64,000 nt of DNA, taken from contig CP002084.1 in the NCBI GenBank assembly GCA_000143165.1, forward strand, positions 1,178,001 through 1,242,000. Reading direction: 5' to 3'. A program made the position numbers and the translations under genes. Under the pieces are notes generated by a model. That model saw only the letters and a list, made by a program, of their open reading frames with translations, did no database searches and was not told the origin of the DNA. Of the stretch, positions 50,341-62,981 are shown one piece after another; positions within the stretch are counted from its first letter, which is position 1, and each line of letters begins with the position of its first letter. The DNA is from Dehalogenimonas lykanthroporepellens BL-DC-9. Its GTDB lineage: Bacteria; Chloroflexota; Dehalococcoidia; Dehalococcoidales; Dehalococcoidaceae.

Positions 50341-50955
50341 ATGACAGCAATAAAGGGTAAAAAAGACCTGCCCGTTCTACTCTTCGGCGCATCAACGCGT
50401 CGGGCTATCCTGGCGCTTCTTTTCGGACATACCGAAGAATCTTACTACCTGCGGCAGATTGCCAGAATTACCGGTTATGGCCTGGGGCCGGTACAGAGAG
50501 AACTCCGACAATTGGCTGATGCCGGCCTTATCCGGCGTTTCGACAGCGGCCACCAGGTCTATTTTCAGGCCAATCCCGATTCCCCGGTGTTCAAGGAACT
50601 GAAAGGGCTGATTACCAAGACCATCGGTGTAGCCGACACCCTGCGCAGTGCCCTGACCGCTTTGTCCGATAGCATCAGCCTGGCCTTCATCTATGGTTCG
50701 GTAGCCCGGGGTCAAGAGCAATCCGGGAGCGATATAGATTTAATGATTGTAGGAGAGACTACCCTGCTGGAAGTGGTTAAAACACTACGGGGGGCACAGG
50801 ATGCTCTAGGCCGGGAGATTAACCCGACGATTTATTCAATTGAAGAATTCCGTTCCAGGGTGAACGACAGGCACTATTTCATTCAGGACGTCCTTGCCGG
50901 TGAGAAGATATTTATAAAGGGAAACGAGAATGAGCTTAAACGAATGGCTGGCTGA
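50341..50955 (+). CDS. MNT-type nucleotidyltransferase antitoxin with N-terminal winged helix
   Basis: A 204-residue fusion. Residues ~8-85 are a winged helix (STRRAILALLFGHTEESYYL, QIARITGYGLGPVQRELRQL). Residues ~110-190 are a minimal nucleotidyltransferase with GS at 119-120 and D131/D133 (IYGSVARGQEQSGSDIDLMI). MNT proteins of this kind neutralise HEPN toxins by adding AMP to them. Its start has no ribosome site and sits directly behind a palindrome, suggesting leaderless, self-regulated expression. Its 3' end overlaps the HEPN gene by 26 bp, so the pair is coupled. Confidence 0.88.
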   Translation: MTAIKGKKDLPVLLFGASTRRAILALLFGHTEESYYLRQIARITGYGLGPVQRELRQLADAGLIRRFDSGHQVYFQANPDSPVFKELKGLITKTIGVADTLRSALTALSDSISLAFIYGSVARGQEQSGSDIDLMIVGETTLLEVVKTLRGAQDALGREINPTIYSIEEFRSRVNDRHYFIQDVLAGEKIFIKGNENELKRMAG

Positions 50956-51370
50956 AGGCTGGCTGACCAGACACCGGCCTGATAAACGCGAAATATCGGA
51001 GTTGCTGGGTATCGCCGACCGGGCAATTACCGATGCCGGGATTAAAGAAATCAGCCCTGACGCCCGGTTGAGCATCGCCCATAACGCCGCATTACAACTG
51101 GCAACCGCCGCTTTGGCCGCGACCGGTTACCGGGCGGGACACGAAGCTTACCACTTTCGGACCCTTCGGTCGCTGACCTTCACCATCGAGGCGGAAACGG
51201 ACATCATAGACCAGCTCGATGTGTTTCGCAAAAAACGAAACATCAGCGATTATGAAAGAGCCGGGGCTATTTCAAACCGGGAAGCAGAAGAAACGCTTGC
51301 CCTGGCAAAAACCCTGCGTGAAGCGGTTATATCGTGGTTGAAAAGCCACCATCCCCAACTGTTGCCGTAA
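50930..51370 (+). CDS. HEPN domain toxin
   Basis: A 146-residue all-helical HEPN protein. The catalytic-type motif is FRKKRNISDYE with Arg103-Asn104 and Tyr108, the R-N-x3-Y variant of the HEPN Rx4-6H RNase site. LSIAHNAALQLATAALAATG (~47-66) and the C-terminal helix SNREAEETLALAKTLREAVI are typical of the MNT-linked class. AAAGGGAAACGAGA precedes the ATG. As the toxin of a type VII toxin-antitoxin pair it would cut RNA unless AMPylated by the upstream MNT protein. Whether the altered motif is active cannot be judged. Confidence 0.88.
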   Translation: MSLNEWLAEGWLTRHRPDKREISELLGIADRAITDAGIKEISPDARLSIAHNAALQLATAALAATGYRAGHEAYHFRTLRSLTFTIEAETDIIDQLDVFRKKRNISDYERAGAISNREAEETLALAKTLREAVISWLKSHHPQLLP

Positions 51371-51543: not shown

Positions 51544-52524
51544 TCACCCGTACTTCGCCGCTACGGCCTCGGCTTTCTTTTTAATAAGACGGCGCAATGA
51601 CGGCGGCTCCAGCACCTCCACGTGGTCGCCCCAGCCCAGTATCCAGCCGATAAAGTCCGGCGTGTCAGCCAGCCGCAGGTTCACCATGACCGAGCCGTCA
51701 TCCTGCCGGGCCACCGTCTGCGAATGATGATATTGGCCTTCCTCCATATACCGGGCCACTTCCGGGGCGAACTTCAACGTGACGTTCCTGACCGACTGGC
51801 CGGCCGGCGGTGTGAAGATGGACCAGGCGTTGCTCAGGTACTTGTCGATACTGAAGCTGTCGGGAATAGTGTAAGTTTCATCCAGCAGAACGCTCCGCCG
51901 GATACGGTCCAGCTTGAACGTCCTGACCTGGCCGGCCTTGTCGCACCGGCCGATGACGTAGTTGGCGTGTTCCTGGGCCACCGGCTCGATGAAATACGGG
52001 GCAATGACCCGCTCCGCCGGCGCCGGGTCGCCCATCGTCCAGTAGGTGATGCGGCATTTGCGCCCTTCCAGCATGGCCTGGCAGAGGTCACGCAGGACAC
52101 GGGAATACCGGGTGTCCGGGTGACGGTGCGATATTCGGTCCAGGGTGGAGTTCACCTGCTTCTGAAAACCGGCCGGCAGGACGGAGTTGAGCTTGGTGAA
52201 GGTGTCCAGCATCTCCTGGTTACAGTCACGGTCCAGGCGCTGGTAAAGCCGGATGGCCAGCAGAATAGTGAGCGCCTCCATGGAAGAAAAGCGCACCGGC
52301 GGCAGATAACTATCGGAATCTACCCCCCAGCGGGGGCCGGCCTGCCATATCGGCACCTTCATGCCTTCTTCCAGAGCTCTGAGGTCGCGCCGCGTGGTGC
52401 GGGTGCAGACTTCGCACTTTTCGGCCAGTTCCCTGACGGTCAGCCCCTGCGGGTTCTGACACAGGATATGCTCCAACCGCCCCAGGCGAGCCTGCCGGTC
52501 ATAGCGGCCTTCCTTCTGTCCCAT
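51544..52524 (-). CDS. WYL-domain HTH transcriptional regulator
   Basis: A 326-residue regulator from ATG at 52524, chosen for the GGAGGTGACAGGT ribosome site. The N-terminal winged helix is GLTVRELAEKCEVCTRTTRR (residues ~27-46) with DLRALEEG. The WYL domain (~140-225) has RKCRITYWTMGDPAPAERVI, the canonical region NYVIGRCDKAGQVRTFKLDR and the following IRRSVLLDE. The WYL triplet itself is changed to NYV. A C-terminal WCX extension follows. WYL proteins of this layout regulate defence islands. It is divergent from the AAA+ gene, with the shared palindrome (52624-52663) between them. Confidence 0.9.
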   Translation of the reverse strand: MGQKEGRYDRQARLGRLEHILCQNPQGLTVRELAEKCEVCTRTTRRDLRALEEGMKVPIWQAGPRWGVDSDSYLPPVRFSSMEALTILLAIRLYQRLDRDCNQEMLDTFTKLNSVLPAGFQKQVNSTLDRISHRHPDTRYSRVLRDLCQAMLEGRKCRITYWTMGDPAPAERVIAPYFIEPVAQEHANYVIGRCDKAGQVRTFKLDRIRRSVLLDETYTIPDSFSIDKYLSNAWSIFTPPAGQSVRNVTLKFAPEVARYMEEGQYHHSQTVARQDDGSVMVNLRLADTPDFIGWILGWGDHVEVLEPPSLRRLIKKKAEAVAAKYG

Positions 52525-52623: not shown

Positions 52624-52663
52624 GTGACACTCAAGCTGTCACAGCCCGGTGCTAGAGTGACAC
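52624..52663. promoter_or_regulatory. Palindromic operator between the WYL regulator and AAA+ gene
   Basis: GTGACA (52624-52629), 7 bp, TGTCAC (52637-52642), plus a third half-site GTGACAC at 52657-52663. The same palindrome recurs at 55766-55783. It lies 24 bp before the AAA+ start codon at its near edge and 100 bp from the WYL start. Confidence 0.75.
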
Positions 52664-52686
52664 TGTAGAAAGGAGGCAGACTGCCA

Positions 52687-54036
52687 TTGGTAGATATAAC
52701 TGAAAACGACCCGCTGAAACAGGAGGTGGCAATAGACCCTGATTATGACGACGCCGACGAGCAGACCGACCGGGAACGCCGGTCTTTTGTCGAACGCACC
52801 CTGACCGACACCCTGGGCGAGGGGGAACGCAAAACGGCCGTGGTCATCCAGCCGGTATTTTACGCCGACCTGGTAGCCTGGGCGCTGAAAACCTGGCTGG
52901 AGCGTGAAGGCTGGCGCGTCCTGAAAGCCACCGGCAACGAAGGCCAGTCTATGCCGCACCACGAGACGGTGGAATACGCCCCCGACTGCCAGGCGGAGTT
53001 CATGATGAACGGCATCCTCACCGTCGCCCGGCAGGATACCCGGCTGACCCTCATCGTCCGTATCAAACCGCGCTGTCAGCCCCAGATACAGATAACCGGC
53101 CGCGTCGAAGACGCCTCGGCGGTGACCGCCATGGCCGAAGGGCTGTCAGCGCTTATTAAAAATGAAAACTTCTATCGCCACGCCTGTGTGCGGATGAACG
53201 CTTACTACCCGGCCCTCATCACGCCCGAGTCCCGCTCCTGGAACTCCATCATCCTGGACGAGGATACGCTCCGTGACATCCGGCAGAACACCATCGGCTT
53301 TTTCCGGAAATCCCGCCAGCTGGCGCGGATGGGCGTCCCCCGCAAGCGCGGCCTTATCCTGTCCGGCCACCCCGGCACCGGCAAGACGCTCATCTGCAAG
53401 GCCATTATGAAACAGACCGCCGGCAAATACACCTGCATCACCACCGACCCCGGCCTGATGGACGAGCCGAACTACATCCGCGCCGTGTACGCGCTGGCCG
53501 GCGAACTGGCGCCGTCCTTCGTCTTCATCGAAGACCTGGACCAGATAGGCCAGTCCCGCTCCCTGTTTCCCTTCCATAACGGTTCGCCGCTCAACACCCT
53601 GCTGGAGGTGATGGACGGGGCCGAGGCCTGCGACGGCATCATTACCATCGCCACCACCAATTCCCTGGACAGCCTGGACTCCGCGCTGATACGCCGGCCG
53701 TCCCGGTTCGACCGCATCATCGAACTGCCCCACCCGGACGAGGACAAGCGGCGGAGCATCATCGACACCCTGAGTCGCCGCATCCGGCTGGACGCCGACA
53801 TCAAGGCCTACATAACTCGAAGCACCCGGCACTTCACCCCGGCCCAGCTTCAGGAAGTTATCTACACCCTGGCCATCGACCGCGCCGGCCGGGAACGCCG
53901 CTTCCGCACCACCGCGCCGCTGGCGGTGACCCGTGAGGACGTGGACCGCGCCATCCGGCGCGTCAATTCCTTCCGGCAGACCGGCAGTCTGGGCTTCCGC
54001 CCGTCGGATTGCGGCCCGGGGGACGGCGTAGCCTGA
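52687..54036 (+). CDS. AAA+ ATPase of the defence region
   Basis: A 449-residue ATPase starting at TTG 52687, with AAAGGAGG ten bases upstream. Residues ~1-50 are acidic. Residues ~50-165 form an unrecognised domain (FYADLVAWALKTWLEREGWR ...). The AAA+ module has Walker A LSGHPGTGKTLICKAI (~residue 226), Walker B SFVFIEDLDQIGQ (~residue 278), sensor 1 ITIATTNSLDSLD and the arginine finger region IRRPSRFDRIIELP. It resembles the p97/FtsH/Vps4 classic clade rather than replication clamp loaders. It is followed 109 bp later by the DUF2779 nuclease. A partner nuclease or unfolding target is likely. Confidence 0.85.
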   Translation: MVDITENDPLKQEVAIDPDYDDADEQTDRERRSFVERTLTDTLGEGERKTAVVIQPVFYADLVAWALKTWLEREGWRVLKATGNEGQSMPHHETVEYAPDCQAEFMMNGILTVARQDTRLTLIVRIKPRCQPQIQITGRVEDASAVTAMAEGLSALIKNENFYRHACVRMNAYYPALITPESRSWNSIILDEDTLRDIRQNTIGFFRKSRQLARMGVPRKRGLILSGHPGTGKTLICKAIMKQTAGKYTCITTDPGLMDEPNYIRAVYALAGELAPSFVFIEDLDQIGQSRSLFPFHNGSPLNTLLEVMDGAEACDGIITIATTNSLDSLDSALIRRPSRFDRIIELPHPDEDKRRSIIDTLSRRIRLDADIKAYITRSTRHFTPAQLQEVIYTLAIDRAGRERRFRTTAPLAVTREDVDRAIRRVNSFRQTGSLGFRPSDCGPGDGVA

Positions 54037-54145
54037 TGGCACTGCTGATTTCAGCGCGCATCGCCACCGTCATCCTGGCCTGGCCGGGGCGCTTCAGAAA
54101 AAACTCTTTCAACCCGGCCCAATACCGGGTAAGATAGGAAAAACA

Positions 54146-55630
54146 ATGTACAAAGGAAAAACCGGCAACCTCTCCAAATCAAAATACCTGAAGTCTCTCC
54201 AGTGCCCCCGCCTGCTGTGGGTGGATGCCAACCAGCGGGAGCGCATCGTGATTGACGAAAGCACCCAGCACATCTTCGCGCAGGGGCATGAAGTGGGCCT
54301 TCTGGCCCAGTCGCTCTTTCCCGACGGCGTGGACGCCGGCACCGGGCCCAGCGCCGAAAACCTGGCCATCACCGCTGAACTGCTCCCTCAGCGCGTGCCC
54401 ATCTACGAAGCCGGGCTGTCAGCCGGGCGGTTGTACTGCCGGGCGGACATCCTGGAACCGGCCCCGGGCGACGCCTGGGACATCATCGAGGTGAAAAGCG
54501 CCAATTCGGTCAAGCCGGAAAACCTGGACGACGTGGCCTTCCAGCGCTACTGCGCCACCATGAGCGGACTGACCATCCGGCGCTGTTTCCTGATGCACCT
54601 GAACCCTGATTATGTAAAACAGGGTGACATCGACCCGGAAGCGCTGTTCGTCACCGAGGACGTGACCGACCAACTGGACCCGCACACCGACGGCATCGAA
54701 GGGCGCATCGCCGAGGCCCTGCAGGTAATGGATGCCGATGAGTGCCCCGGCCCGGACATCGGCGCCCGGTGTTCCAGCCCCTACGCCTGCGCGCTGACCG
54801 GCGAATGCTGGGACGGCCTGGCCGACCATCACCCGCTGACGCTGTATTACGGCAAGGCGCTGGGCGAGCGACTGCTGAAACAGGGCATCAACACCATTGC
54901 CGACATCCCGCCCCACGTCAAACTGAACGGCAAGCAACGCATCCAGATGGAATGCGTCCTGAACAACCGGCCTTACATTGACCACGCCGCACTGGGTGAC
55001 TTCCTGGGCGGGCTGGAATATCCGCTGTATTTCATGGACTTCGAAACCTTCCAGACGGCCATACCGCTCTACGACGGCACCAGACCCTACCAGCAGATAC
55101 CGTTCCAGTTTTCGGTTCATGTAGTGGACCGTCCCGGCGCCGAACCCCGTCATCATTCCTTCCTGGCCGATTCCCCGGCCGACCCCCGGGCGGACTTCAT
55201 CCGGGAACTGACGGCGTGCATGGGTGAGAGAGGCAGTGTCATCGTCTATTACCAGACCTTCGAGACGGGACGCCTGGCGGAACTGGCCCAGGCCTTCCCG
55301 GAGTACCGGGAGCGCATCGCCAACATCGTCGGCCGGATGGCCGACCTCATCGTGCCCTTCCGCAACTTCGCCTACTACCACCCCGACCAGCGCGGCCGGG
55401 CCTCACTGAAGTACACCATGCCCGCCCTGACCGGCCTGGGCTATTCGGATCTGGTCATCAAGGAAGGCGGCATGGCCTCCCTGCGCTACTTCCAGTCCGT
55501 CTTCGGCAACCTGCCGGAGGCCGAGGTAGCCGCCATCCGCCGTGACCTGGAAACCTACTGCGGCCAGGATACGTTCGGTATGATCGGGATGGTGGAGGAG
55601 TTGCGGGGGTTGGTTACCCGGAAGATATGA
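54146..55630 (+). CDS. DUF2779-type fusion nuclease (Cas4-like plus DEDD)
   Basis: A 494-residue protein with two nuclease-like halves. The N-terminal half looks like Cas4/RecB: Cys20 (SLQCPRLLW), the PD-(D/E)XK residues in CRADILEP and WDIIEVKSAN (~residues 93-117), and a later Cys set CSSPYACALTGEC (~209-221). Together with Cys20 these could hold a 4Fe-4S cluster as in Cas4. The C-terminal half is RNase-H-like: YFMDFETFQTAIP (~residue 295) supplies the DxE, and CGQDTFGMIGM near the end supplies another Asp, as in DEDD exonucleases. AGGAAA precedes the ATG. No cas1 or CRISPR is present. Confidence 0.82.
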   Translation: MYKGKTGNLSKSKYLKSLQCPRLLWVDANQRERIVIDESTQHIFAQGHEVGLLAQSLFPDGVDAGTGPSAENLAITAELLPQRVPIYEAGLSAGRLYCRADILEPAPGDAWDIIEVKSANSVKPENLDDVAFQRYCATMSGLTIRRCFLMHLNPDYVKQGDIDPEALFVTEDVTDQLDPHTDGIEGRIAEALQVMDADECPGPDIGARCSSPYACALTGECWDGLADHHPLTLYYGKALGERLLKQGINTIADIPPHVKLNGKQRIQMECVLNNRPYIDHAALGDFLGGLEYPLYFMDFETFQTAIPLYDGTRPYQQIPFQFSVHVVDRPGAEPRHHSFLADSPADPRADFIRELTACMGERGSVIVYYQTFETGRLAELAQAFPEYRERIANIVGRMADLIVPFRNFAYYHPDQRGRASLKYTMPALTGLGYSDLVIKEGGMASLRYFQSVFGNLPEAEVAAIRRDLETYCGQDTFGMIGMVEELRGLVTRKI

Positions 55631-55730
55631 AAAAACGCTTATACATCTCAAAAAACTATTATAATTCGGCCTGTTTTTCAAAAAACACTTATTTTGAGGC
55701 CTTATTTTCAGAAAACAGTTACACATTCCC
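55629..55730. repeat. 30-bp degenerate tandem repeat
   Basis: Units begin at 55629 (short), 55649, 55679 and 55709, each starting CAAAAAAC or similar; the two complete units end in GGCCT(G/T)(T/A)TTTT. The period is exactly 30 bp across the middle units. It lies between the DUF2779 stop and the helicase promoter. Confidence 0.7.
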
Positions 55731-55765
55731 AATCCAGCGTCATTTTCCCCCACTCACGCAAAAAC

Positions 55766-55783
55766 GTGACACACTGCTGTCAC
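55766..55783. promoter_or_regulatory. Palindromic operator before the helicase-methyltransferase block
   Basis: GTGACA (55766-55771), 6 bp, TGTCAC (55778-55783), the same arms as at 52624-52642. It lies about 40 bp upstream of the -35 box at 55821. Confidence 0.75.
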
Positions 55784-55820
55784 TGCCGGGCGGTATCATG
55801 CCGGTAATGAAGCGTTTTGC

Positions 55821-55864
55821 TTCACAAGCCCCGGTTGACTGCGTATAATGGGTCAACGCAGTCA
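55821..55864 (+). promoter_or_regulatory. Promoter with a second inverted repeat, PLD-helicase operon
   Basis: TTCACA (55821-55826), 17 bp, TATAAT (55844-55849). The -10 box is flanked by perfect 8-bp arms TGACTGCG (55836-55843) and CGCAGTCA (55857-55864). This is a likely repressor site, different from the GTGACA palindrome upstream. Confidence 0.7.
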
Positions 55865-55891: not shown

Positions 55892-58800
55892 TTGTCACCA
55901 AACAGCCGTTTTATTACCAACGACAAAACCACAAAGCTCATCGACCGGCTGAACCAGCTTATCAAGCATAGTTCAGAGCTTAAGTTCCTGGTCGGCTTCT
56001 TCTACTTCTCCGGCCTGCAGGAGATCTATCAGGCGCTCAAGGCCAACCCTGATGCCGTTATCAAAATACTGGTCGGCCTTAATGTAGATAAACACAACTA
56101 CGGCATCATCGAATACGGCGACAACCGGAAGCTGGACGGGCGGGAACACTGGAAAAACTTCGAATACTCACTGCTTAACGCTTTCGATAACGATGAGTTC
56201 GATACGCCCGAATTCCATGAACAGGTCAATTTTTTCATCGAGGCCATCATCAACGACCGGCTCCGGATACGAAAAACCCGCGAACCCAACCATGCCAAAT
56301 TGTATCTCTTCGGTATCCGCCCCGCGGACCAAAGCCTCCTGAAATCCACCTTCATTACCGGTTCCAGCAATCTGACCGGGGCCGGATTGTCCCAGCAGAA
56401 CGAATTCAACGTTGAAATCAAAGACTACGGTTACGATGAAGCTGAAGGTTTTTTCAACGAACTTTGGGACAAGGCGGTAAAGATAACCGAGGACGACCTT
56501 AACAAGACCCTCCTGATCAAGCTGATTACCGAAAAAACCCAGGTGGCGCAGGTCACCCCCTACGAGGCCTACGTTTTCCTGCTCAAGATGTATCTGGAAA
56601 CCCAGGAGCAGAAAACTCTCGATGGCTATCTGCTTAAACTGCTCGAAAATGCCGGCTACAAGACTTACAGCTACCAGACCGACGCTGTCGCCCAGGCGCT
56701 CCAGATCATCGAAAACCAGCAGGGTGTCATCATTTCCGACGTGGTCGGCCTGGGCAAGAGTATCATCGCCGGACTGACTGCGGTAGGACTCCAGAGTAGA
56801 AGAGGGCTTATCATCTGCCCGCCCGGGCTTATCGGCGGTTACGACAAACACGGCAACTACTCAGGCTGGGCTAAGTATAAAAAAGACTTCGGACTGCATT
56901 CCTGGGAAATCTGCTCCTCCGGAGACTTGGAAAAAACCTTCAATCTGGTACAAAAGCATGACGACTTCGACACGGTTATCATTGACGAAGCCCACCGCTT
57001 CCGGAACGAAGACACCCAGAATTATGAACACCTGGCCAATATCTGTCGCGGCCGCCGGGTGATACTGCTCTCCGCCACCCCTTTCAACAATACCCCTAAC
57101 GACATTTTTGCCTTACTGAAGCTGTTCGTGGTGCCGGGTAAATCCACCCTGAGCATCGACGGCAACCTGACCGGCGAGTTCCGCAGTTTTCACGCCCAGT
57201 TCAAGAAGCTCTCAGACATCAAGAAGAACCATAAATCACCATCGGCGCAGAAAAGGCTGAAGGCCAGGGCACTATATGAAGAGCTTTTCGGCGCCGGCGA
57301 TATCGACCTGGCCAGAGTGGACGACCGTACCCGGGAACTGTCCCTCCGGATTAAAAATATCATCGCCCCGGTGACCATCAGGCGAAACCGCATCGACCTG
57401 AAAAATGACCCGGAATATTCCAAGGAGATGATAGACCTGCCGGAAGTCCAGGACCCGCGGGAATGCTTCTTCGAACTGACACCGGAACAATCCGAATTTT
57501 ACGACCGCATAATCGATGTTTATTTCGGTGAAAACGGCCGTTTCAGCGGCGCTATCTACCGGCCATACATCTATGAAGTTGGCCTGGATGCCGACCCGGA
57601 CAAACTGGGGGAAGAAGGCAACCGGCAAGCCCAGGCCCAGACTAACCTGTATGATTTCATGCGCCGGTTACTGGTCAAACGCTTCGAAAGCTCTTTCGGC
57701 GCCTTCCGTGACAGTATTCGTAACTTTCACAGCGTCTCCACCAAAGCCCGGCAATTCATCCGGAATAACGGCAAGTTCATCCTTGACCGTAAACTGCTCA
57801 ACCGTATCTATGACCTGGACGGCGACCTGGTGGCTGGAGCCCTGGCGGACTTCGAGGCCCAAATCGGCGAGGAAAAGATCAATCCCAAGCTGGATAAAAT
57901 CTATACCATCGACGAATTCGTTGACCGCGAACGTTTTCTGGAAGACATCGACAACGACATCAGTCTTCTGGAACTTGTCCTGGATGAACTGGCTGAACTG
58001 AAACTGACCGAAAACGACCCCAAGATAGCCCGGCTGGCTGAAGACATTGCGTGTATCACCGCCATGAAAGACAACGCTAAAGAGCCGGTGCGCAAAGTGG
58101 TCATCTTTTCAGAATATATCGATACAGTGGCCTATGTGGAAAAGTACCTCCGCCCTATCTACGGCGACCGGCTGATTGCCGTCAAGGGGGACTACGGCCA
58201 AAGCAAAGCCACCGAAATCCTGGCCAACTTCGACACCACGTATTCCGGCAAACCGCGTGACGACATCCAGATACTGCTGACCACCGATAAAATGTCCGAA
58301 GGCTTCAACCTCAACCGCGCCGGTGCGGTCATCAACTACGATATCCCCTGGAACCCCACCCGGGTCATTCAGCGGGTAGGCAGAATCAACCGCATCAGCC
58401 GGAAGGTCTTCGACAAGCTCTATATCTATAATTTCTTCCCGACGGTTCAGGGAGCCACGGTAGTAAAAAGCCGTCTCATTGCCACCCAGAAGATGTTCCT
58501 GATTCACAACGCCCTGGGCGAAGACGCCAAGATCTTCGAGCCTGAAGAGGAACCCACCCCTTCAGAACTGTTCCACCGCATCCAGCTCAACCCCGAATCC
58601 AGCGAAAAGGAAAGCTTCAACACCACCGTCCGCCGTCTTTACAAAGATGTAGATGACGCTGTTAAAGCCAAGGTCAAAGACTTCCCCCTGCGCCTCAAGG
58701 TCACCAAACAAAATGACCAATTCAGTCAGACAGCCTTCTTCAGCCGTGGTAATGGCCTTTTCGTAAGGCAACTGGCTACCGGCGATGAAAAACCCCGGCA

Positions 58801-59287
58801 AATCTCTTTCCAGGAAGCCCTGCCCTTCGTAGAATGCGGGCCGGAAGAACCGGCATTGCCTGTTGTCACCTTCGACTGGGATACATATCGCGCCCTCAAG
58901 GAATACCGGGAGAAAACCACCGGCGGCGGCGCCATGAAGTCCTTCGAGCAGAAAGCTTTCAACAACCTGAAATCCATTCTGGCGGACAAGTCCGGGGACT
59001 ATGATGGCCTGCTGACCTTCATCACCAACCTGGTGGAAGACATCGCCGATTACCGCACCCTGCCGGACTTCACCCTGCGGGAACTGGCTTCGCTGGATGT
59101 AACTTCAGCCTCCAAACGGAAGAAGACGATAGACAGGCTTTATGAACTGCGCTACAAACTGGGCGAGAAATACCTGGATGAAATCAAAAGACGCGCCAGC
59201 CTGACCGACAAGACGGTTATTGTGGCAGTACAGAACACACCGGAGAATATGGTACATGAGCAAGGAATCCCTGCAAAAGGTAATTGA
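55892..59287 (+). CDS. PLD nuclease-SNF2 helicase fusion
   Basis: A 1131-residue protein starting at TTG 55892, with GGAAGG four bases upstream; the frame is open to 55817 but that covers the promoter. Residues ~1-190 are a PLD-type nuclease domain with the HxK motif NHAKLYLFG (~134) and FITGSSNLTGAGLSQQNEF (~153-171). The HKD Asp is replaced by Gly, as in several defence PLDs. The SNF2-like motor has motif I DVVGLGKSIIAGL (~284), DEAH (IDEAHRF, ~365), motif III LLSATPFNN, and motif VI IQRVGRINRI (~827). It overlaps the methyltransferase gene by 32 bp. It is probably the translocase/nuclease of a restriction-type system. Confidence 0.88.
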   Translation: MSPNSRFITNDKTTKLIDRLNQLIKHSSELKFLVGFFYFSGLQEIYQALKANPDAVIKILVGLNVDKHNYGIIEYGDNRKLDGREHWKNFEYSLLNAFDNDEFDTPEFHEQVNFFIEAIINDRLRIRKTREPNHAKLYLFGIRPADQSLLKSTFITGSSNLTGAGLSQQNEFNVEIKDYGYDEAEGFFNELWDKAVKITEDDLNKTLLIKLITEKTQVAQVTPYEAYVFLLKMYLETQEQKTLDGYLLKLLENAGYKTYSYQTDAVAQALQIIENQQGVIISDVVGLGKSIIAGLTAVGLQSRRGLIICPPGLIGGYDKHGNYSGWAKYKKDFGLHSWEICSSGDLEKTFNLVQKHDDFDTVIIDEAHRFRNEDTQNYEHLANICRGRRVILLSATPFNNTPNDIFALLKLFVVPGKSTLSIDGNLTGEFRSFHAQFKKLSDIKKNHKSPSAQKRLKARALYEELFGAGDIDLARVDDRTRELSLRIKNIIAPVTIRRNRIDLKNDPEYSKEMIDLPEVQDPRECFFELTPEQSEFYDRIIDVYFGENGRFSGAIYRPYIYEVGLDADPDKLGEEGNRQAQAQTNLYDFMRRLLVKRFESSFGAFRDSIRNFHSVSTKARQFIRNNGKFILDRKLLNRIYDLDGDLVAGALADFEAQIGEEKINPKLDKIYTIDEFVDRERFLEDIDNDISLLELVLDELAELKLTENDPKIARLAEDIACITAMKDNAKEPVRKVVIFSEYIDTVAYVEKYLRPIYGDRLIAVKGDYGQSKATEILANFDTTYSGKPRDDIQILLTTDKMSEGFNLNRAGAVINYDIPWNPTRVIQRVGRINRISRKVFDKLYIYNFFPTVQGATVVKSRLIATQKMFLIHNALGEDAKIFEPEEEPTPSELFHRIQLNPESSEKESFNTTVRRLYKDVDDAVKAKVKDFPLRLKVTKQNDQFSQTAFFSRGNGLFVRQLATGDEKPRQISFQEALPFVECGPEEPALPVVTFDWDTYRALKEYREKTTGGGAMKSFEQKAFNNLKSILADKSGDYDGLLTFITNLVEDIADYRTLPDFTLRELASLDVTSASKRKKTIDRLYELRYKLGEKYLDEIKRRASLTDKTVIVAVQNTPENMVHEQGIPAKGN

Positions 59288-62200
59288 CAGTGGCGCCGCC
59301 GATGAGCCGCTGAATGATTTTTTCCATGAAGTCAGCGATGGCTATCGTGAAGTCGACGAACCGCTGGAAACCAGTCATGACCGGTTTATCAATGCTCGGC
59401 TATTGGGTGAAATCACCTTCAGCCCCGTAGATAAGCTGGCTATTGTCACCGCCGATGTAACTACCGACCTGACCGAACGCTCCGGCAAGAAAGCCCAGTA
59501 CGAGTTCGCCCGGAAACTGCTTCGCGACTGGAAAACCTATGACGGCGGCATCTTCATCTTCAAAGGTAATAAGAAGCAATTCCGCTTCAGTCTGGTTTAT
59601 ACCCAGTACCAGGGACCTAAGCGGGACTTCAGCAACTTCCGCCGCTTTACTTATTACGTCGATCCCGAACAAACCAACAAGACCTTCAGGGAACGGATTG
59701 GCCAGGGTGATTATTCCAGCCTGGAGAAGATTAAAGAAGCCTTTTCGGTGGAGAAGGTAACCAAAGCTTTTTACACCGATATAGCCAACTGGTATTTCTG
59801 GGCGGTACAGAGTTCCCGCTTTCCCAATGACGCGGAAAACGAGCCGGGTGGCAGAAATGTAGCCGTGATCCGTTTGATTACCAGAATGATTTTCATTTGG
59901 TTCATGAAAGAACGGGAGCTGGTTCCGCTGAAATTATTCAAGAAAGACCAGGCTCAAAAGCTACTGGTTAGCCTGGAGCCGGAAGAAACCACATATTATA
60001 AAGCGATCCTTCAAAACCTCTTCTTTGCCACCCTCAATACCAAGCAGAAAGATAGAAAATTCCGCTTCACTCATGAATTCCAGGGCAAGAACAACAGCTA
60101 CATGGACCATAGCGTCTATCGTTATGAAAACTTGTTCCGGAACCGCGAGGATATGCTGATCATCTTCAAGGATATTCCTTTCCTCAACGGCGGATTGTTC
60201 GACTGCCTTGACTGGCCGGCCAAAACGTCCGGAACCGAGGTGCGCTTCGACGGCTTCACCGACAAAGACGTTGGCTTAAGTGTCCCCAACCACCTTTTCA
60301 TCAGTGATGTTATTTCCGTAAATCTGAACACCGAATACGGAACCAAAGGGAAGAAGTACACAACGCAGGGTTTACTGAATATCCTTTCCTCTTACAATTT
60401 TACAATCGACGAGAACGATCCGAATGACCAGGAAGTAGCCCTTGACCCCGAAATGCTCGGCAAGATATTCGAAAATCTATTGGCCAGCTTCAACCCGGAA
60501 ACGGCCACCACCGCCCGTAAAGCAACCGGGAGCTATTACACCCCGCGGGAAATCGTGGATTATATGGTCACTCAATCTCTCAAACAATACTACCAAACCC
60601 ATTTGAGCAACGGCGACGCCCTTAGCGAGAACCTGGATATACTACTGGCCCCACTAACCGACGACGTTGTGAATCCATTCGATGAAGAAACTTCAAAGGA
60701 AATAGTGAGATTAACGGAGCAACTGCGGATTGTAGACCCGGCAGTCGGTTCAGGGGCTTTCCCCATGGGTATATTGAATAAGCTGGTTACTGTGCTGGCT
60801 AAAGTCGACCCGAATAATAAGCTCTGGAAACAAAAACAACTCGAAGCCGCGAAAAACTTGACCGACCCAATATCCCGAAAAAGATTGGAAGAACAGATCG
60901 AAGAGCAATTCTCTACGAAGAATTCCAACTATGGCAGGAAACTATATTTAATACAGAAATGTATTTACGGCGTTGATATCCAGCAAATTGCCATCGAAAT
61001 TGCCAAACTGCGTTTCTTCATTTCCCTACTGGTGGATGAAAATATCGATAAAACCAAGGACAATTGGGGCATAGAGCCTTTACCTAACCTGGATTTCAAG
61101 CTGATGCAGGGCAATAGCCTGGTTTCTAATTTCATGGATATTGATCTGGATGCCGACGACGGCCCAAACGTAAAACTCATGAAAGATGAGGCAGAAGAAC
61201 TCGCCGACCAATTTCAGCAAAGGAAAAGCGAGTACCAATACGAGACTGACAGGCTCAAGAAGACCAGGTTAAAAGAAGAAATTGACACACTCATAATAAA
61301 GATATTCGAAACCCGCATCAAAACCCAGAAAGCGATATATTTTAACGGATTAACCCAGATACACAAGTTGTTAGAGCCCTGGGATGAGGGTGAGAAAAAA
61401 AGAGAACAGCTCAAGAAAGAGATAGAGCTACTGAACCAGAAAAGTGGGTTCGACCTGGAATTGGCGGAAAAACGTTTAAAGGAATTTACTTCCGGGCAGA
61501 AAATCAAGCCCTTCTTTGCCTGGAAACTCTACTTTGCCGAAGTATTCCGGGAAAAAGGTGGTTTCGACATAGCTATCGCGAATCCGCCGTATATAGGTGA
61601 AAAGAAAAATAAATCACTTTTCGAGCCCATCAAGCAAAGCTCTTTAAGACCTTACTATCAAGGTAAGATGGACGTTTTCTATTTCTTTTTCCATTTGGCT
61701 CTTAATATTTGCCGCAATAACGGAATAATCACGTTTATCACAACCAATTACTACTTAACAGCAACAGCAGCATCTAAATTACGTTGTGATTTCAAATCCC
61801 GGGCTACGATAACACGCCTAGTGAATTTCAATGTGTTAAAAATATTTGAAGCAGCACCGGGACAACACAACTTAATAACATTTCTGACTAAAACTTCTGA
61901 TCCTGAATACATCGCTGATACCTGTATAACCAATAGAGTAGGTTACGGCAACTCCACCGTAATAAACCAAATATTGAGCTGGCAAGATAATCGGACAGAT
62001 TATTTTAAATTGTCTCAGGATATTATTTATGACGGCAAAGACTGTTACATCCGCATGTGCCGTAATTCATGTGACCCTGTATCTGAAATACTTGATAAAA
62101 TTAAATCAGAAGGTGTAAATCTAGGTGATTTATGCAATATTAATCAGGGGATTGTGACTGGCGCAGATAAATTAACAAATCGTCATATCGCTAAATATAA

Positions 62201-62981
62201 TATAAATGGCGTTATAGGGGATGGGATATTTATTTATCCTATCGGCGAATTAATACAATTAGGATTAAGTTCTGATTTGGTAAAACCTTGGTACAAAAAT
62301 AGTGATATAAAACGTTTTTACTCTAATATTTATAATAGTTATGAACTATGTCTTACTAATTTTATAGCGGATTTGTCACAATATCCGCTATTCCAACAAT
62401 ATTTATCTAATTATAAGTCTATTTTGACTAATCGTAGCCAAATAGAGCATTGCTTGGATTGGTGGGACCTTCATCAAATCAGAATGAAAGACAAGAACAA
62501 AACCGGTTATGTAAAAAAAATGATATTTGATGGCCCCAAAATCGTTTCTCCTCAAAGAAGTAATGCGAACACTTTTGCTTATAACGAAGTTCCCTGGTAC
62601 GCTAGCGCCGATGTGTATTTTATTACCCAGAAGGATAAGTCCATCAATCTAAAATATGTGCTTGCATTACTCAATTCAAGGTTATATTTCCTCTGGCTTT
62701 ATCATCGTGGGAAGCGAAAGGGTGAAATGCTAGAACTCTACCAGGTACCTCTTTCCGAGATTCCCATAAAAAGGCTCAATACTGTTGAACAACGGCCGTT
62801 TATTTTGGAAGTTGACAGAATACTGGATATCACCAAAGATGGCGATTATCAAACCAACCCGGAGAAACAAGCACAAGTTAAGGATATCGAGAAAAAGATA
62901 GACCAAATGGTGTACGACCTATACGGTTTAAATGGCGAAGAAATCACTGTGGTGGAAGAGAAAGCTAATCCAAATGGCTAA
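59256..62981 (+). CDS. Eco57I-class N6-adenine DNA methyltransferase (large, with TaqI_C-like specificity region)
   Basis: A 1241-residue protein from ATG 59256, with CGGAGAAT before it. Residues ~1-480 form a long N-terminal region of unknown activity (YEFARKLLRDWKTYDGGIFI; no clear PD-ExK). SAM motif I is VDPAVGSGAFPMGIL (~residue 493) and the catalytic NPPY is IANPPYIGE (~776). Residues ~790-1200 hold the target-recognition part, including LNSRLYFLWLYHRGKRKGEM near the C terminus as in TaqI-type specificity domains. The DNA turns markedly AT-rich after ~61.7 kb. It resembles DISARM/BREX-type and type IIG methyltransferases, but the usual partner genes of those systems are absent. It should methylate adenine to mark self DNA. 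Confidence 0.88.
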   Translation: MSKESLQKVIDSGAADEPLNDFFHEVSDGYREVDEPLETSHDRFINARLLGEITFSPVDKLAIVTADVTTDLTERSGKKAQYEFARKLLRDWKTYDGGIFIFKGNKKQFRFSLVYTQYQGPKRDFSNFRRFTYYVDPEQTNKTFRERIGQGDYSSLEKIKEAFSVEKVTKAFYTDIANWYFWAVQSSRFPNDAENEPGGRNVAVIRLITRMIFIWFMKERELVPLKLFKKDQAQKLLVSLEPEETTYYKAILQNLFFATLNTKQKDRKFRFTHEFQGKNNSYMDHSVYRYENLFRNREDMLIIFKDIPFLNGGLFDCLDWPAKTSGTEVRFDGFTDKDVGLSVPNHLFISDVISVNLNTEYGTKGKKYTTQGLLNILSSYNFTIDENDPNDQEVALDPEMLGKIFENLLASFNPETATTARKATGSYYTPREIVDYMVTQSLKQYYQTHLSNGDALSENLDILLAPLTDDVVNPFDEETSKEIVRLTEQLRIVDPAVGSGAFPMGILNKLVTVLAKVDPNNKLWKQKQLEAAKNLTDPISRKRLEEQIEEQFSTKNSNYGRKLYLIQKCIYGVDIQQIAIEIAKLRFFISLLVDENIDKTKDNWGIEPLPNLDFKLMQGNSLVSNFMDIDLDADDGPNVKLMKDEAEELADQFQQRKSEYQYETDRLKKTRLKEEIDTLIIKIFETRIKTQKAIYFNGLTQIHKLLEPWDEGEKKREQLKKEIELLNQKSGFDLELAEKRLKEFTSGQKIKPFFAWKLYFAEVFREKGGFDIAIANPPYIGEKKNKSLFEPIKQSSLRPYYQGKMDVFYFFFHLALNICRNNGIITFITTNYYLTATAASKLRCDFKSRATITRLVNFNVLKIFEAAPGQHNLITFLTKTSDPEYIADTCITNRVGYGNSTVINQILSWQDNRTDYFKLSQDIIYDGKDCYIRMCRNSCDPVSEILDKIKSEGVNLGDLCNINQGIVTGADKLTNRHIAKYNINGVIGDGIFIYPIGELIQLGLSSDLVKPWYKNSDIKRFYSNIYNSYELCLTNFIADLSQYPLFQQYLSNYKSILTNRSQIEHCLDWWDLHQIRMKDKNKTGYVKKMIFDGPKIVSPQRSNANTFAYNEVPWYASADVYFITQKDKSINLKYVLALLNSRLYFLWLYHRGKRKGEMLELYQVPLSEIPIKRLNTVEQRPFILEVDRILDITKDGDYQTNPEKQAQVKDIEKKIDQMVYDLYGLNGEEITVVEEKANPNG

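Follow-up and report, generated by a model that had tools for sequence, protein, structure and literature searches.

A -10-phased palindrome beside a WYL regulator gene in a defence island of Dehalogenimonas lykanthroporepellens: a candidate site of a PafBC/DriD-like activator

Genes and palindromes of the island

The window analyzed here is a stretch of 64,000 nucleotides from Dehalogenimonas lykanthroporepellens BL-DC-9 (contig CP002084.1, positions 1,178,001 to 1,242,000). It carries a WYL regulator gene and a divergent AAA+ ATPase gene, followed by a DUF2779 gene and by a block encoding a PLD-helicase and a methyltransferase (Table 1); functions of neighboring genes were assigned from domain matches. 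The DUF2779 protein appears to consist of a PD-(D/E)XK-like N-terminal and a DEDD-exonuclease-like C-terminal part, and its motif residues are kept in orthologues at 51% identity. The helicase start is placed at TTG 55892 on account of a Shine-Dalgarno-like GGAAGG.

Table 1. Genes, palindromes and predicted promoter elements of the island. Positions are those of the window unless a contig is named.
Feature	Position	Strand	Remarks
WYL regulator gene (wHTH-WYL-WCX)	51544-52524	-	326 aa from ATG 52524 (GTG 52533 possible too); Pfam WYL 5e-15, WCX 2e-21, HTH_DeoR 9e-5
Palindrome 1, GTGACA-N7-TGTCAC (GTGACACTCAAGCTGTCAC)	52624-52642	+	oriented toward AAA+ gene; kept in orthologous AAA+/WYL intergenic regions
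Predicted extended -10 box TGC-TAGAGT	52653-52658	+	10 nt after TGTCAC of palindrome 1
Lone half-site GTGACA	52657-52662	+	overlaps final two bases of the predicted -10 box (52653-52658)
AAA+ ATPase gene	52687-54036	+	conserved divergent partner of WYL gene; Pfam AAA 6e-24
DUF2779 gene	54146-55630	+	Pfam DUF2779 3e-43
Palindrome 2, GTGACA-N6-TGTCAC (GTGACACACTGCTGTCAC)	55766-55783	+	oriented toward helicase operon
Predicted -10 box TATCAT	55794-55799	+	10 nt after TGTCAC of palindrome 2
Second, independent sigma-70-type promoter of helicase operon, TTCACA-17-TATAAT	55821-55849	+	11/12 consensus positions; consensus match only
PLD + SNF2 helicase gene	55892-59287	+	Pfam PLDc_2 2e-8, SNF2 4e-12, Helicase_C 8e-18
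Eco57I-type N6-adenine methyltransferase gene with TaqI-like specificity domain	59256-62981	+	Pfam Eco57I 3e-29, TaqI_C 8e-13
Third palindrome (GTGACACACCGCTGTCAC)	G000:C1:1248231-1248248		6.2 kb beyond window edge, before ARPP-1 gene

Both palindromes of the window and the extra half-site lie where a preliminary description of this DNA had placed them. Shuffling gives 0.01 expected motif matches within the 64-kb window. In the complete genome of 1,686,510 bp the exact motif GTGACA-N5..8-TGTCAC occurs at three places, all of which fall inside one 17.6-kb stretch, with no match for the reversed control; the palindrome motif is specific to the island. The looser form TGACA-N5..7-TGTCAC adds one place, at 955160. 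Elsewhere in the genome, N6 sites with one or two mismatches are near background (33 vs 23 in the control), and the corresponding N7 sites are in excess (70 vs 29). The lone half-site has no counterpart among orthologous promoters and is probably incidental or strain-specific.

The gene behind the third palindrome belongs to the ARPP-1 family (PF20208, E 8e-76). Its start codon is out of frame with the conserved body (L004:7293-8145), which suggests a frameshift unless the sequence is in error. A GmrSD-type gene and two transposase loci (L004:852-5910) separate this gene from the methyltransferase block. Next to the WYL gene, a pair of genes at 50341-51370 (204 and 146 aa) matches the PADLOC candidate PDC-M05A/B and looks like a nucleotidyltransferase/HEPN pair; a similar pair also adjoins the WYL gene in genome G001 (50% and 42% identity). 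An origin of the island as a tRNA-integrated element was considered and is unsupported, as a search with 15-mers from the 3' end of tRNA-Thr gave no downstream copy. Upstream of palindrome 2 there are four A-tract repeats (AAAAAAC-like, then TTAT-like) at 55630, 55650, 55680 and 55710, spaced by 20, 30 and 30 nt, and the region 55630-55720 may represent bent DNA or sites for another protein.

Promoter architecture and occurrence in the Dehalococcoidia

It had been proposed that the palindromes precede the gene blocks, which is true but incomplete, since they sit at a fixed distance of 10 nt from a -10 box. The sites upstream of AAA+ genes were picked by their half-sites alone, with the -10 box not considered (n=13), and in all 13 promoters TANNNT starts exactly 10 nt past TGTCAC, other offsets being found in 0-2 of the 13. 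The extended -10 element TGN precedes TANNNT in 10 of them, and no -35 box was found in any, the best TTGACA match 15-19 nt upstream reaching at most 3/6 positions. Extended -10 promoters can function without a -35 box. The +10 rule also holds for palindromes 2 and 3 of the source genome and for the second site of G001, a genome in which both exact palindrome copies lie in the WYL/AAA+ intergenic region. Spacers of N5, N6 and N7 are all present among the orthologous promoters, and only the left half-site shifts. It is thus not necessary to assume that the 6- and 7-bp spacers are bound by different proteins, as had been considered, because the spacers interchange among orthologous promoters. 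In the source genome the -10 box faces the AAA+ gene; a separate TATAAT, roughly 60 bp away from palindrome 1, belongs to the WYL gene. The second, near-consensus promoter of the helicase operon is situated between palindrome 2 and the helicase gene.

A scan marks both window sites on the minus strand as terminators, and an A/T tract is common before the left half-site (83% A+T at -5 to -1 vs 49% in the loci), features that would suit minus-strand intrinsic terminators with 6-bp stems and T runs instead of operators. This explanation is hardly credible, given that the stems contain just three G-C pairs, that the -10 spacing persists in TTGACA variants and mismatched sites, where the stem is disrupted, and that a terminator has no need for TANNNT at +10.

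A profile of the AAA+ protein detected orthologues in 17 of the 393 Dehalococcoidia genomes, and none of this family was found outside the class among 400 genomes sampled from the phylum. A divergent WYL gene adjoins the AAA+ gene at 13 of the 18 AAA+ loci, and at 12 of these 13 the palindrome lies between the two genes (within two mismatches); in G350 no site can be recognized at the AAA+ promoter despite the adjacent WYL gene. Where the AAA+ gene lacks such a neighbor, the palindrome is present at one of five loci, the contig of which ends just beyond. The divergent pair with its intergenic palindrome is met in families throughout the class. A search for the full pattern TGACA-N5..7-TGTCAC-N10-TANNNT gave 42 places in 33 of the 393 genomes of the class and 3 in the reversed control; it has the -10 rule built in and so is no test of it, and in draft genomes the number of motifs counted is affected by where the contigs end. 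The pattern is tied to genomes with the AAA+ gene, being present in 11 of 17 with it vs 22 of 376 without it (P = 2e-9).

In genomes that lack the AAA+ gene, the full pattern adjoins a WYL gene of the same family at L106, L110, L118 and L120 and a WYL gene of a more distant clade at L099, L101, L116 and L121. These loci bear on the possibility that some other regulator, with its gene elsewhere, binds the palindrome and controls the island genes by chance. The source genome indeed contains two further WYL-domain frames, but from genome to genome the motif goes with the adjacent WYL gene, even at loci without the AAA+ gene, and the closest other frame (L026:9660-10232), a paralogue fragment, is 46% identical to the C-terminal half only and is devoid of the HTH part. 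We consider such a regulator improbable. A contig search with the WYL protein returned a single distant locus. The earlier proposal that the WYL protein regulates both blocks is likely to be correct, as the motif is island-specific and tracks the adjacent WYL family across the class.

Exact palindromes were also encountered in G003, G005, G006 and G007. They are without the -10 spacing and were treated as unrelated; around the ones that were inspected, the stretches read contained no WYL gene. In G007 (L018-L021) there are four copies of a GTGACA-N8-TGTCAC palindrome, 249 bp apart and equally without the -10 spacing.

The WYL protein and the sign of control

Paired arginines of the WYL domain (R..R) in PafBC bind ssDNA. 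In the beta4/beta5 loop of the WYL family studied here R201 is nearly invariant, and the second position is K204 in this protein and K or R in relatives. The family profile matches PafBC (E 1e-35, positions 5-322 of 325) and DriD (E 4e-25, positions 7-316) over nearly the full length, while matches to BrxR (E 2e-9, positions 141-211) and CapW (E to 3e-4) are confined to the WYL domain. With the single sequence, DriD was the closest PDB match (E 2e-12) and BrxR gave no match. As far as sequence can tell, the protein is far closer to the activators PafBC and DriD than to the repressors BrxR and CapW. It has the wHTH, WYL and WCX domains and the full-length similarity expected of the PafBC/DriD/SiwR type, and its presumed sites show the corresponding geometry, i.e., a fixed distance to the -10 box, overlap with the -35 region and absence of a -35 consensus, in 13 of 13 promoters. 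PafBC proper needs two adjacent WYL genes, and there is one per locus here; full-length similarity to the BrxR family is lacking.

Several characterized systems are informative in this respect. The PafBC promoter motif tTGTCRgtg-8 nt-TannnT (RecA-NDp, -26) places TGTC 12 nt before TANNNT (PMC5656591), exactly as observed here, and PafBC, which is activated by ssDNA, inserts between DNA and sigma domain 4 (PMC11804915). Mycobacterial PafBC further resembles the present case in being a WYL/WCX protein, in the dispensable -35 box and in helix arginines four residues apart (R42/R46 here, R44/R48 in PafB; PMC6789036), but it acts as a heterodimer, its site is not palindromic and its targets are DNA repair genes, in contrast to the single gene, palindromic site and defence/nuclease targets found here. 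SiwR of Mycobacterium smegmatis is a homodimer that recognizes a 19-bp palindrome between -35 and -10 (PMC10693628). It is likewise a WYL activator with an adjacent target operon, an imperfect palindrome and dependence on the -26 region (PMC10693628), although it targets DinB-like genes in one operon and not several defence modules. DriD of Caulobacter crescentus, a homodimeric wHTH-3HB-WYL-WCX activator, has a site that overlaps -35 at a constant distance to the -10 box and turns on a divergent operon, not its own gene (PMC12340889, preprint). It shares with our locus the phased site and the divergent target operon, and differs in its target sequence and in controlling DNA-damage genes.

We thus consider it probable (about 0.7) that a PafBC/DriD/SiwR-like WYL activator switches on several separate defence or nuclease modules through the palindrome as its binding site. 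The island's own WYL protein would bind as a dimer, via its N-terminal winged helices, to [G/T]TGACA-N5..7-TGTCAC between about -41 and -23. The TGTC of the right half-site has its centre near -26, and this half-site keeps a constant 10 nt to a weak TANNNT downstream of it, usually extended by TGN and without a -35 box. The bound protein would replace the -35 contact, either by sigma adaptation (as PafBC) or by anchoring at the -35 region (as DriD), and would recruit the housekeeping RNA polymerase. Three units would be switched on together, namely AAA+/DUF2779, the PLD-helicase/methyltransferase block (with a promoter of its own in addition) and ARPP-1. Binding and activation are deduced, and ssDNA or a similar nucleic acid would be the signal for the WYL domain.

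The opposite sign of control deserves consideration. A BrxR/CapW-like repressor could cover the -35 region and spacer of extended -10 promoters that are self-sufficient, until an infection signal releases it. With the palindrome over the -35 region, such a bound protein would keep RNA polymerase out, the extended TGN is present in 10 of 13 AAA+ promoters, and defence islands often carry WYL repressors of the BrxR family (PMC9122601). BrxR and CapW are also WYL regulators of such islands that bind inverted repeats, and the preliminary description had drawn the analogy with BrxR. This analogy is not supported: the sequence is PafBC/DriD-like and the site geometry matches that of activating WYL proteins. 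BrxR, by contrast, acts as a repressor from sites that lie beyond its own promoter, on the downstream side, and have 11-bp arms (PMC9122601). Moreover, occlusion would not demand that the site keep its distance to the -10 box to the exact base in promoters of unrelated genes, the -10 hexamers are weak (TAGAGT, TATCCT, TAGGTT), and palindrome 2 lies upstream of a near-consensus promoter, where it would block poorly. Activation is favored because of the PafBC-type geometry, the similarity to PafBC and DriD, and the DriD-like layout of divergent genes; repression is unlikely, though it keeps some weight because extended -10 promoters can work alone. Several observations count against the activator explanation, namely that the second promoter of the helicase operon looks stronger, that K204 replaces the second arginine of the ssDNA-binding pair of PafBC, that the AAA+ promoter in G350 lacks a recognizable site, and that the helicase is linked to the palindrome in the source genome only, with no site near the partial helicase gene of G360.

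Separate modules and a possible regulon

The view that the two blocks form one system rather than mere neighbors was not borne out, since the helicase and the AAA+/DUF2779 blocks each occur without the other, and co-occurrence of both blocks with both sites was not found in other genomes. Homologues of the PLD-helicase with 54-57% identity are present in G170, G256 and G208, in which no AAA+ orthologue was found and no motif lies upstream of the helicase homologues. Conversely, G001 and G002 have WYL, AAA+ and DUF2779 but no such helicase was detected in them, and G360, which has WYL and AAA+, carries a partial helicase gene without a site within reach. The link of the helicase to the palindrome is seen in the source genome only, because four of the five closest helicase homologues are in genomes without a detected AAA+ orthologue. 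The helicase/methyltransferase and AAA+/DUF2779 blocks are separate modules that here probably share one regulator. As the helicase operon has its own near-consensus promoter, the WYL site may add induction to basal expression.

Other, unrelated genes are found directly downstream of the full pattern. They include ARPP-1 in G350 (and in G054 with one mismatch), RNase_H_2 exonucleases at L052, L055, L104, L107, L109 and L110, and PD-(D/E)XK nucleases at L058 and L059. No site was found at the ARPP-1 homologues of five genomes without a detected AAA+ orthologue. In G380 (L106:3078-7039) the full promoter motif comes after a WYL gene and before a type I-E-like cas3, and CRISPR in this genome may thus be under the same promoter type as the island genes. 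It is conceivable, although we hold this only tentatively and at somewhat less than even odds, that a positive defence regulon extends across the class, in which the WYL protein senses phage- or damage-derived nucleic acid and turns on the AAA+/nuclease module along with captured immune genes. The latter would comprise ARPP-1, helicase/methyltransferase, RNase H-type and PD-(D/E)XK nucleases, and cas3.

If this is true, islands grow by capture of one -35-less promoter grammar. To our knowledge, defence islands have mostly been described as sets of neighbors, and the WYL regulators studied in them (BrxR, CapW) are repressors. A precise promoter signature would predict which island genes obey one positive regulator, and would do so in organohalide-respiring bacteria and their uncultured relatives, where genetics is hard. 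The signature offers a searchable rule for regulon assignment and points to an unnamed AAA+/nuclease module; searches of openly licensed papers for DUF2779 and for WYL with defence islands did not turn up this module. The sign and the signal of control become directly testable in vitro.

A separate observation concerns the more distant WYL clade. CTGACA variants of the promoter pattern adjoin WYL genes of this clade, and at L116:1627-3071 the next gene is glyoxalase-like, recalling SiwR neighborhoods.
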